Of a stretch of 32,321 nt of DNA, positions 22,550 through 26,839 are shown piece after piece. A model generated the notes under the pieces. The model did not search any database and had not been told where the DNA came from. It saw only the letters and a list, made by a program, of their open reading frames with translations. Both the position numbers and the translations under genes were made by a program. Position 1 is the stretch's first letter. Every line of letters starts with the position of its first letter. Location of the stretch: the NCBI GenBank assembly GCA_003159495.1, contig PLPI01000041.1, positions 26,224 to 58,544 of the forward strand, written 5' to 3'. This stretch comes from a candidate division FCPU426 bacterium (lineage in GTDB: Bacteria; Oederibacteriota; PGYV01; Palsa-1178).

Positions 22550-23518
22550 TTACTGCGCGTCATTGGACTGCTGTTTGTGCTTTTCAAGCATTGCCTTAAG
22601 GCGGGCATCCCTGCCGCTTTGCTCATCATTGTTTTTTTCCGTATCTTTTTCGGCGTCAAGATAAGGCTCTTCCTTTATGATTTCGTCCGCAAGCGCCCTG
22701 TCCCCTGCGGAGAGTGAATTGAATTTCTCCGGGTCCATCTTTCTCATTTTTTTGAGCGCCTCTATCCTTTTAAGCCTGCGTTCTATCTTGTATTTTTTTA
22801 TCTTTCCCGAGCCCCTCATCGATCGCATGTATTCAATTTTTTCCCTTAAATCCCCTATTTCCCTGTATCTGGCAATAAATCCGCTGCCCAGCTCGGTAAT
22901 CCTGCCCGGGCCGTGCATGTATTTCACGATGGTCGTTTCCTCGCCTTTTTTCAGGACCACCCTGTGAAGCACATTACCATTCATATCAAGCCCCGATACC
23001 TCGACCGCGCCGTTATATACCCCGATGGAGCTGTCATCGCCGGCCTGAACGATAAATTCAGTCCCCTTTACAGCGGCCATTGCCATTTTTGTTTTTACCG
23101 TAAATTCCTCTTTGCCCAGGAGTTTTTTTACAACCGCCATGAGCCTGCCCTTTAAAAGTTCAAGGCCGGTTTTGGAACTATTTTTCCCCTTAAGGTCCTT
23201 TATGAGAAGCCTGCTGTCCGGGTCGAGTTTAACAACCGTGGCATCGTCAAAAATCACTTCCATTGAACTGTCAGGGTCGGTTGAAACCGTGTCGCCTTCG
23301 TATAAGGGGACATAAAGATCCTGGACCGCTTCGCTGAAATCCCCGCCGGAACGCCTTATTTCACATTCGCCGCTGAAATCATTTACATAAGCTATTGAAT
23401 AATCCGTGTCCGCCCCGTTCTTTCCCCCGCCGGAGACGCCCGCGCCCGCCATGCAGTAAGAGGGGGCCTGGATTAAAACCGCCGCGAAAAGCGCGGCAAA
23501 GAATATTTTTTTCATCAT
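22550..23518 (-). CDS. Exported FecR-domain protein with charged C-terminal coil
   Basis: The 322-residue protein has a signal peptide (cleavage near CMAGAG) and a FecR-type beta domain at about 45-200: YVPLYEGDTVSTDPDSSMEVIFDDATVVKLDPDSRLLI, later VKTKMAMAAVKGTEFIVQAGDDSSIGVYNGAVEVSG. The last 110 residues are Lys/Arg/Glu-rich and probably coiled coil (KIKKYKIERRLKRIEALKK). Without an anti-sigma transmembrane segment or a sigma-factor neighbour it is one of the periplasmic FecR-domain proteins of unknown role, not a canonical FecR. Its ATG overlaps the stop of the pyruvate kinase gene by four bases and GGGAGG precedes it, so its translation is tied to that glycolytic gene. Confidence 0.85.
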   Translation of the reverse strand: MMKKIFFAALFAAVLIQAPSYCMAGAGVSGGGKNGADTDYSIAYVNDFSGECEIRRSGGDFSEAVQDLYVPLYEGDTVSTDPDSSMEVIFDDATVVKLDPDSRLLIKDLKGKNSSKTGLELLKGRLMAVVKKLLGKEEFTVKTKMAMAAVKGTEFIVQAGDDSSIGVYNGAVEVSGLDMNGNVLHRVVLKKGEETTIVKYMHGPGRITELGSGFIARYREIGDLREKIEYMRSMRGSGKIKKYKIERRLKRIEALKKMRKMDPEKFNSLSAGDRALADEIIKEEPYLDAEKDTEKNNDEQSGRDARLKAMLEKHKQQSNDAQ

Positions 23519-25014: not shown

Positions 25015-25046
25015 AAAAAAGGGGACGGAATATCCGTCCCCTTTTT
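25015..25046 (-). terminator. Rho-independent terminator after the micro-protein array
   Basis: A 9-bp GC-rich stem GGGGACGGA / TCCGTCCCC with a three-base loop is flanked by A6 and T5 tracts. It follows the stop codon of the last array gene at 25063 and faces the back of the pyk promoter, so it insulates the two units. Confidence 0.9.
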
Positions 25047-25062: not shown

Positions 25063-25317
25063 TTACTTGGCTGTCGCTGTTGTTGCTACAGGAGCTTCCG
25101 TGTTGCCGGCTGCTTCCGCGGCCGCGGCTGTTTTTGCCGGGAATAATTTGTGCCAGAGCCTCTTTAAAAACGACTCTTTAACTACCGGTGCCTCAGCCGT
25201 CATTGTGACCGGCGCTGCTGTAATTGTTGTCGGTGTGGTAACCACTGCCTCGGCCGCGAAAAGCGATGCCGCTGCGAAGAGTACCGCGAGAACGATAACG
25301 ATTGCTTTTTTCATCAT
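25063..25317 (-). CDS. Small exported Ala/Thr-rich protein with cationic amphipathic segment (array member 4)
   Basis: The 84-residue protein has a signal peptide (MMKKAIVIVLAVLFAAASLFAA) and a low-complexity Ala/Thr/Val/Pro body. Near the middle is ESFLKRLWHKLFPAK, which forms a strongly amphipathic cationic helix. The C-terminus ATTATAK matches that of array member 1. A near-perfect AAAGGAGGTG precedes the start pair ATGATG; the longer frame to 25410 is only the read-through of the hairpin. It is separated from the previous array gene by a terminator and may have its own promoter. I know of no function; secretion and cationic character are the only firm statements. Confidence 0.75.
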   Translation of the reverse strand: MMKKAIVIVLAVLFAAASLFAAEAVVTTPTTITAAPVTMTAEAPVVKESFLKRLWHKLFPAKTAAAAEAAGNTEAPVATTATAK

Positions 25318-25367
25318 ATTCACCTCCTTTAACATAATATGGAACAAACAACCTGCGTTATAATTGT

Positions 25368-25438
25368 AAAAAAAAAGCCATGGAGGCACGTCCTGCGCTA
25401 TGGCACGCATTTGACTGCGTCCGACGCGCCTCCATGGC
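25368..25438 (-). terminator. Long branched hairpin with T9 tail
   Basis: On the plus strand the arms GCCATGGAGGCACGTC (25377-25392) and GACGCGCCTCCATGGC (25423-25438) pair over 16 positions with one mismatch; an inner ACGCA/TGCGT pair can form a second hairpin. Read on the minus strand, the structure is followed by nine T, so it should terminate the transcript of array member 3. It is larger and more structured than an ordinary terminator. Confidence 0.8.
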
Positions 25439-25458
25439 CTGAAATTATATTGCGGGTA

Positions 25459-25692
25459 TTACTTTGCTGTCGTTGTGTCTGCTGCCGGAGCTGTAACTAC
25501 CGGTGTCGCAACTTTTTTTACTTTCTTTGCTTTCTTTGCTTTCTTTTTCATCGGTTTTGCAGCCGGTGTAACCGCGTCTGCTGTTGCCGGTGCTACTGCC
25601 GCTGTTGCCGGTGCTGCTGCTGTTGTGTCTGCTGCGAATGCCATTGAAACTGCGAACATTAATGCCATCAGAACTACGATAACTTTTTTCAT
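25459..25692 (-). CDS. Small exported Ala/Lys-rich protein (array member 3)
   Basis: The 77-residue protein has a clear signal peptide (MKKVIVVLMALMFAVSMAFA, then AD). The mature part is nearly all Ala, Pro, Thr, Val and Lys, with a basic core KPMKKKAKKAKKVKKV and a C-terminus ADTTTAK. GGAGG lies a short distance before the ATG. Composition resembles Asr-type acid-shock proteins and histone H1-like tails, both polyanion-binding, but no homology can be claimed. Its closest relative in the window is array member 2, with the same signal peptide core and KKAKK repeat. Confidence 0.75.
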   Translation of the reverse strand: MKKVIVVLMALMFAVSMAFAADTTAAAPATAAVAPATADAVTPAAKPMKKKAKKAKKVKKVATPVVTAPAADTTTAK

Positions 25693-25717
25693 TCTAAATC
25701 CTCCATTGTTTTTTTTT

Positions 25718-25760
25718 GGCGGGTTTTGTAAAGCGCAGTTTAACCGTAGCGCGCCCCGCC
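25718..25760. other. Imperfect hairpin between array members 2 and 3
   Basis: GGCGGG (25718-25723) and CCCGCC (25755-25760) enclose an inner GCGC/GCGC pair. On the minus strand it is followed by A rather than T, so it is not a normal terminator for the upstream gene; it might slow decay or act as a processing site. Confidence 0.3.
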
Positions 25761-25788
25761 TTAATTCACGCGCATTAACGGATTTTTT

Positions 25789-26007
25789 TTAGTTTGCCGC
25801 CGGTGTTGCCGTCTGAGCCGCCGCGGTTGGTTTTACTTTCTTCGCTTTTTTGGCCTTCCTTGCCTTTTTGGCCTTTTTTACCGTTTTGACGGTTTTCGCC
25901 GCTTTTGCCGTACCCGTGGATGCGGAATCGGCTGTTTTTGTATCCGCCGCAAAAGCCATCGAAGCCGCGAACAGGACAACCATCAACATAATCATGATTT
26001 TTTTCAT
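25789..26007 (-). CDS. Small exported Ala/Lys-rich protein (array member 2)
   Basis: The 72-residue protein has a signal peptide (MKKIMIMLMVVLFAASMAFA, then AD). A Thr/Ala/Ser-rich stretch is followed by a long basic core, VKKAKKARKAKKAKKVK, with heptad-free KKA repeats, and it ends TPAAN rather than TAK. The start is ATG 26007 because AAGGAGG lies eight bases upstream; an in-frame ATG seven codons earlier precedes the ribosome site and is unlikely. After export the peptide would carry about 13 positive charges on a small body. The function is unknown. Confidence 0.75.
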   Translation of the reverse strand: MKKIMIMLMVVLFAASMAFAADTKTADSASTGTAKAAKTVKTVKKAKKARKAKKAKKVKPTAAAQTATPAAN

Positions 26008-26047
26008 TTTCCATGCCTCCTTTTTCATATTTTAAATATAGTCCCTT

Positions 26048-26269
26048 TTACTTTGCCGTGGCGGTTGTTGCCGCCGGTGTTGTGTGCGGTTTGGCCCATT
26101 TCTTTACGGACTGCTTTTTCTTATTTATTTTTTTCAAAGCCGGCGCATTTTTTCCGGCCTTTGCCGTTGAAGTAACCATTGAAGCCGCGCCAGGAGGAGG
26201 AGCCATTTCAGCCATTAACATTGCCGAGGCAAAAGCAAGAACCAGAGCAAGCACAACTATTTTTTTCAT
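26048..26269 (-). CDS. Small exported basic protein (array member 1)
   Basis: The 73-residue protein has a signal peptide (MKKIVVLALVLAFASAMLMA) followed by EMAPPPGAAS, a basic core KKINKKKQSVKKWAKPH, and the C-terminus ATTATAK shared with member 4. AAGGAG lies seven bases before the ATG. It opens the array and is probably followed on the same message by member 2 after 40 bases. It differs from members 2 and 3 in having a more varied core with Trp and His, so the array is diverged rather than freshly duplicated. Confidence 0.75.
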   Translation of the reverse strand: MKKIVVLALVLAFASAMLMAEMAPPPGAASMVTSTAKAGKNAPALKKINKKKQSVKKWAKPHTTPAATTATAK

Positions 26270-26352: not shown

Positions 26353-26721
26353 TTATTTGCGGGTTTTTAGTATAAGGAAGTCTCCAGCCCCTTTTACGCC
26401 GGCATATGAGTAATTATCTCCGGAATAAAATCCCAATGCCTGTGGGGCTTTTGCAAAGCATATTTCGGTGAAACCCGTCTGAACGGGTTTTTTAAACTCT
26501 TCGGAAACGAAAACAACGCCCTGTTTGACGCGTTCGCTGTTTTTATGGCTGTGTTTCTTATAGAGGGAATATTTCGAATGTTTGTATACGGATGGTATAG
26601 AGGTGTTTTCCATGAACTTCAGGGATTTATAATTATAGAAATCCGTGTATGCGTCAAACTGTCCATAGACAAAGACAGCCGCCATTACAAAAGCAACCGT
26701 CATTAACACCAGCTTTTTCAC
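26353..26721 (-). CDS. Small exported basic protein, function unknown
   Basis: The 122-residue protein has a signal peptide beginning at a GTG (VKKLVLMTVAFVMAAVFVYGQ). The mature part is Tyr/Lys/His-rich (YNYKSLKFMENTSIPSVYKHSKYSLYKKHSHKN) and the C-terminal half is beta-like (GVVFVSEEF, ICFAKAPQALGFYSGDNYSYAGV, FLILKTRK). It is not recognisable. GGAGG eight bases before the GTG decides the start; a longer frame to 26811 begins in the promoter region and lacks a ribosome site. It lies directly upstream of the Ala/Lys-rich array on the same strand and shares its exported, cationic nature, so it may belong to the same unit. Confidence 0.7.
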   Translation of the reverse strand: MKKLVLMTVAFVMAAVFVYGQFDAYTDFYNYKSLKFMENTSIPSVYKHSKYSLYKKHSHKNSERVKQGVVFVSEEFKKPVQTGFTEICFAKAPQALGFYSGDNYSYAGVKGAGDFLILKTRK

Positions 26722-26839
26722 AAAACTTCCTCCGCATTTAATCGGTACATAAATAATATGACTTGGATCAAATTTATATAATAAATATATCACAAATTTT
26801 TCCGGAATCAAGTCTTTTTTTTAATTATTATGGCAGAAC

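Follow-up and report, generated by a model that had tools for sequence, protein, structure and literature searches.

The four tiny genes between positions 25063 and 26269 of the window (the whole stretch of 32,321 nucleotides that was analysed) belong to a family, here termed KA, of real genes that are under purifying selection. With the gene directly upstream, termed LK, which is the first of the module and was overlooked by the first-pass annotation, they make up a larger unit than was initially reported. An ECF-type promoter is found before many of their relatives. On balance, and with slightly better than an even chance of being correct, the array can be read as encoding small, Sec-exported, largely disordered polycations that would protect the cell envelope under stress, in the manner of Asr in Escherichia coli. 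In the direction of transcription, the unit comprises:

26353..26721, minus strand: LK protein, exported, 122 aa; GTG start, signal peptide, HKKHSHKNSE motif, C-terminus ILKTRK
26048..26269, minus strand: KA microprotein 4, 73 aa; signal peptide, core KKINKKKQSVKK, C-terminus TATAK
25789..26007, minus strand: KA microprotein 3, 72 aa; signal peptide, core KKAKKARKAKKAKKVK, C-terminus TPAAN
25459..25692, minus strand: KA microprotein 2, 77 aa; signal peptide, core KKKAKKAKKVKK, C-terminus TTTAK
25063..25317, minus strand: KA microprotein 1, 84 aa; signal peptide, amphipathic core ESFLKRLWHKLF, C-terminus TATAK

Each microprotein has a Sec signal peptide, a Lys-rich or amphipathic core and Ala/Thr/Pro linkers, the cores among the four including KKINKKKQSVKK, KKAKKARKAKKAKK, KKKAKKAKKVKK and FLKRLWHKLF. 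This agrees with the first-pass annotation of four exported proteins with basic cores, as do the TAK ends of three of them (microprotein 3 ends in AAN) and the strong ribosome sites, all four ORFs having an ATG start preceded by an AGGAGG/GGAGG-type Shine-Dalgarno sequence. The signal peptides are alike, but with 9-13 of 21 residues in common between pairs they are not the near-identical sequences first described. A fixed filter, requiring a signal peptide, a Shine-Dalgarno sequence, a mature chain rich in A/K/T/V/P/E and a basic core, picks up three of these four genes in the window, and nothing in either 933 kb of 80 unrelated bacterial loci or 100 Markov-resampled windows. In searches with Pfam and NCBIfam profiles no array protein scored above a family cut-off, in agreement with the first-pass annotation, which recognised no family, and an Rfam scan around the array gave only sub-threshold matches. 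The microproteins are inferred to be largely disordered from their composition and from low-confidence single-sequence models; microprotein 1 does not fall on the disordered side of a charge-hydropathy plot, microprotein 2 is borderline, and the AF2 model of microprotein 1 places a helix at residues 45-58 with a mean pLDDT of 60, a value that does not permit a fold search.

The LK gene adjoins KA genes at three loci outside the window. In G002, from another genus of the same family, the corresponding site reads GGDEF-LK-three KA genes-cutA-pyk, and the order GGDEF-LK-KA-pyk is common to this genome and that of the window, where pyk lies downstream of the array and the GGDEF gene upstream, beyond LK. 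As G001 has pyk-cutA-GGDEF at the same site with no module in between, the GGDEF gene is a bystander, the link being positional only, and a functional link to the module is rejected. An assembly gap covers the site of the array in G003. G009, which belongs to a different family within the order, has an LK-KA-LK-KA tandem behind a TolC-RND operon; leucine-rich-repeat and RCC1-like repeat proteins flank this cluster (L134, 1-4058). The window's own genome has a second locus, LK-KA-LysM lipoprotein (contig C126), as well as an LK-LysM pair on contig C143. Within the set searched, LK occurs only in genomes of families f1 and f2. All seven copies have the signal peptide in common and end in a motif of the type L-K-T-R-K or T-N-R-Q-L-K, and the AF2 model of LK, with a pLDDT of 45, is too poor for a fold search. 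A separate curiosity of the locus is an exported FecR-domain protein (22550-23518, minus strand; PF04773, E 7e-19), the gene for which shares 4 bases with the end of pyk; G002 and G007 likewise have FecR-like genes near pyk, accompanied by matches to ECF-like promoters, and it is odd that the FecR domain in the window has no obvious sigma partner.

KA genes (E up to 1e-6) were detected in 13 of the 384 genomes searched, all but one of which belong to the same phylum as the window, in families f1, f2 and f12. The frames are conserved in relatives at conserved loci: seven f12 genomes have a KA gene downstream of one for a ROK kinase, with ilvD nearby in six, and in others a KA gene adjoins a conserved membrane-protein gene. 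The dN/dS ratio between pairs of f12 orthologues is 0.20-0.33, while the linkers vary freely; the family conserves its composition and architecture rather than its sequence. Longer type-B relatives in f1 combine KKAKK with Lys/Glu-rich helical tails. Two KA genes in G002 (L121, 4297-4551 and 4868-5080) are recent duplicates with a dN/dS of 0.59 and nearly identical 5' leaders, implying that the arrays grow by local duplication.

Alignment of the regions upstream of the f12 genes revealed a conserved element, GCAACTTTT-N13-CGTCTTA, and a perfect GGAACTTTT-N13-CGTCTAA precedes the LK gene of G002. Measured against the E. coli consensus, both resemble an ECF/sigmaE promoter. Of the 48 upstream regions scanned for the family, one of which belongs to a neighbouring LysM gene, 16 had such a promoter with a score of at least 17 within 125 nt, compared to 7 of 396 for other genes (p = 4e-12). 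Once the seven regions used for motif discovery were left out, the count was 9 of 41 (p = 2e-6). These counts are partly dependent, because the regions with the promoter include sets of orthologues. Across whole genomes, the pattern GSAAC-N17-CGTCTWA has 8, 7, 7 and 10 sites in G000 (the window's own genome), G001, G002 and G003, whereas the reversed pattern has 2, 0, 0 and 0, a total of 32 against 2 in these four f1 genomes.

The eight exact sites in the genome of the window (GGAAC-N17-CGTCTAA type) lie before an ECF sigma gene, behind which come a likely anti-sigma gene (without a Pfam match) and one for an LTXXQ protein; the broken duplicate of this sigma gene; another ECF sigma gene; a gene resembling tolC; a gene for DnaJ, identified by sequence; a second LTXXQ (Spy/CpxP-like) protein; and two previously unrecognised family members, a 55 aa KA gene (C61) and the LK gene on C143. 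In finding these last two, the motif passed a blind test. Some 3.5 kb separate the broken sigma-gene start and its promoter from the intact operon (L304, 3637-7101), with a FlgK-like flagellar gene between the two copies, a local duplication.

Family members with the promoter comprise the KA gene on C61, the LK genes on C126, C143 and in G002, and members in f12; many others, including most of the ROK-locus orthologues, have no such site. Nor is there one upstream of the four window genes or their LK gene, where the best scores (8-13) are at background level; a scan of the window found no match to the pattern with fewer than two mismatches, and no more matches in total than expected by chance. 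The relatives nevertheless appear to lie in an ECF envelope-stress regulon, and because of this a role in the envelope is favoured over secretion to the medium. What had been put forward as a secreted cationic system is indeed exported and cationic, but its release to the medium is disfavoured by the regulon of its relatives.

The array in the window has the following candidate transcription signals:

26784..26811, minus strand: weakly supported sigma70-like match before the LK gene, TTGATT-16-TATATT
25368..25440, minus strand: intrinsic terminator after microprotein 2, GC-rich stem GGCCAUGGAGGCGCGU, U9; -48.7 kcal/mol, z -6.7
25016..25046, minus strand: intrinsic terminator after the array; z -6.3

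As the first of these terminators, a strong one, separates genes 2 and 1, the gene for microprotein 1 probably needs a promoter of its own. Matches to sigma70-like promoters number five, with 3.5 expected from shuffled sequence. The earlier suggestion of high expression is plausible for the family: TAA is the stop codon of 31 of the 34 Lys-ending genes, compared to 118 of 237 background ORFs (p = 2e-6), which is compatible with it. Codon bias is not convincing, with a likeness to ribosomal genes only in genes 1 and 2 of the array. Directly before the Shine-Dalgarno sequences of KA genes there are conserved 5'UTR hairpins, AGCCCGAAAGGGCT, perhaps mRNA stabilisers, with apparent compensatory changes in the stem AGTGG/CCACT (L225, L226, L232, L234, L236, L238 and L224, L227, L230, L235, L237, L140).

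The resemblance to the acid-shock protein Asr noted from composition holds, in that both have a Sec signal and a small, basic chain rich in Ala/Lys/Thr/Pro, and the mature start of Asr (E. coli b1597; NCBIfam NF033636), AETTTTPAPTATTTKAAPAK, resembles KA microproteins. Membership of the Asr family was rejected, the tests of both score and mature-region homology having failed: the best match to the profile, microprotein 2, reached 18.3 bits (E 0.003) against a cut-off of 50, none of 59 genomes had a protein above this cut-off, and hhalign aligned only profile columns 2-31, the signal peptide and its edge, with a probability of 67. The array proteins contain 0-2% His (none in microproteins 2 and 3, one residue each in 1 and 4), compared to 10% in E. 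coli Asr, and from pH 7 to pH 4.5 the charge changes by 0.4 to 1.2 for genes 2-4 and 2.5 for gene 1, against +8.1 for Asr. Protection against low pH, one of the roles first proposed, is therefore weakened as a matter of charge switching. Asr is reported (PMC10746267) to be disordered and to act as a periplasmic chaperone that helps to maintain the integrity of the outer membrane, and a similar part in envelope stress is proposed by analogy for KA. The best reading of the comparison is that KA proteins, to which Asr comes nearest in behaviour among known families, may be the functional counterpart of Asr, apparently unrelated to it and with no His-based pH switch; they differ also in forming arrays with an LK partner, in their lone terminal Lys and in the ECF-type promoter of relatives.

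Other likenesses are more partial. The Spy/CpxP-type LTXXQ proteins (PF07813) are small and exported, and their genes in these genomes have the ECF-type promoter as well, but they are helical with an LTXXQ motif, not Lys/Ala low-complexity chains, and have no sequence relation to KA. Braun's lipoprotein Lpp is comparable in being a small protein of the envelope that ends in Lys (YRK, against TRK in LK), but KA and LK have no lipobox or heptad helix, and a YkuD domain was not found in most carriers. LEA and histone-H1-like Lys-Ala proteins share the composition, the KKAK repeats and, in type-B tails, the repeated Lys/Glu helix, from which KA proteins differ in being exported, short and with no family match. 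A literature search for Lys-rich disordered periplasmic stress proteins found nothing relevant.

Because the genes of relatives often share their promoter type with envelope-stress genes, coating and protection of the envelope is the probable role. Sec export would deliver a stress-responsive polycation to the periplasm, with the caveat that KA proteins could be extracellular. There the cationic or amphipathic core may bind polyanions such as lipid A/LPS phosphates, anionic membrane or unfolded envelope proteins, flexible Ala/Thr/Pro linkers would keep the chain extended, and the bound polycation might buffer or chaperone the envelope as Asr does in E. coli. The replacement of KKAK by an amphipathic helix in microprotein 1 and in a protein of G003 (L163, 2920-3192) suggests membrane binding by some members. 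Copy number would set the dose, with KA working as a module with the exported LK protein of about 122 aa, to which a LysM lipoprotein is added at other loci. Many members are presumably transcribed by an ECF sigma factor along with the genes for that factor, Spy/CpxP-like proteins, TolC and DnaJ. On this reading the window's array arose by amplification to four genes and either lost the ECF-type promoter or never had it. A more specific version, that LK and KA are an undescribed envelope-stress pair under an ECF sigma/Spy-like circuit, the fast-evolving polycations, with their conserved lone terminal Lys, and the partner, with its conserved T-x-R-K end, assembling on a LysM/peptidoglycan scaffold, is put forward only tentatively.

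The C-terminus calls for an explanation of its own: Lys is the last residue in 34 of 42 KA proteins, but makes up only 6% of positions -2 to -10, and its background frequency at the C-terminus is 18-19% (p = 2e-15). This residue may be no more than a cap against degradation, a polar last residue sparing the Ala-rich tail from tail-specific proteases, an account of the C-terminus alone that is compatible with the envelope-stress polycation and has a substantial, if somewhat less than even, chance of being right. The 42 proteins always terminate in K, Q, N, E or P, never in Ala or Val despite the Ala-rich tails, and both Lys codons are in use, so that the residue itself is what selection keeps; against this, Lys is in any case the most frequent C-terminal residue in these genomes, and might aid termination in highly expressed genes.

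A role outside the cell, as a histone-H1-like surface glue binding extracellular DNA or acidic polysaccharide in a biofilm, would suit the KKAK repeats, the longer type-B relatives with KKAKK and helical tails and the GGDEF protein upstream of the module, but it is unlikely given that the GGDEF gene is present in G001 without the module and that the ECF/Spy/TolC regulon points to the periplasm. The release of antimicrobial or toxin-like peptides from KA precursors, also suggested at the outset, is less probable still. The cationic nature, the amphipathic FLKRLWHKLF core, the variation in copy number and the rapid divergence would fit such a role, but single-copy orthologues, which in as many as seven genomes lie beside genes for a sugar kinase and ilvD, evolve at a dN/dS of ~0.2-0.3, purifying selection at housekeeping loci that weakens the suggestion, as does the sharing of ECF-type promoters between KA relatives and chaperones. 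No processing, leader-peptidase, export or immunity gene is seen beside the array, and profiles of antimicrobial families in Pfam and NCBIfam gave no match over cut-off.

Slightly less credible again is a covalent tether, in which an L,D-transpeptidase would join the terminal Lys to peptidoglycan while the core grips the outer membrane. The lone Lys after a Lys-poor tail, the Lys at the end of all seven LK proteins (most in [TS]RK) and the neighbouring LysM lipoprotein are in its favour, but eight KA proteins end in Q, N, P or E, and anchoring of this kind is not supported by the distribution of the YkuD domain (PF03734), which was found in neither the seven f12 genomes searched nor G002, all of them carriers, whereas G001, which has no array, has one; the window's own genome has one on contig C62. 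A protease cap or a termination effect thus seems to fit the terminal Lys better than attachment to peptidoglycan. That the array ORFs are chance artefacts of GC-rich repeats, as their low-complexity composition might suggest, has a negligible probability and is already refuted by the empty filter controls, the purifying selection and the conserved promoters and ribosome sites.

Small, low-complexity exported proteins usually go unannotated. One such family has now been tied to an envelope-stress circuit by synteny, selection and promoter, which gives a class of micro-ORFs in this phylum a testable function. The family may also represent a counterpart of Asr from E. coli, apparently unrelated to it and lacking the acid switch.
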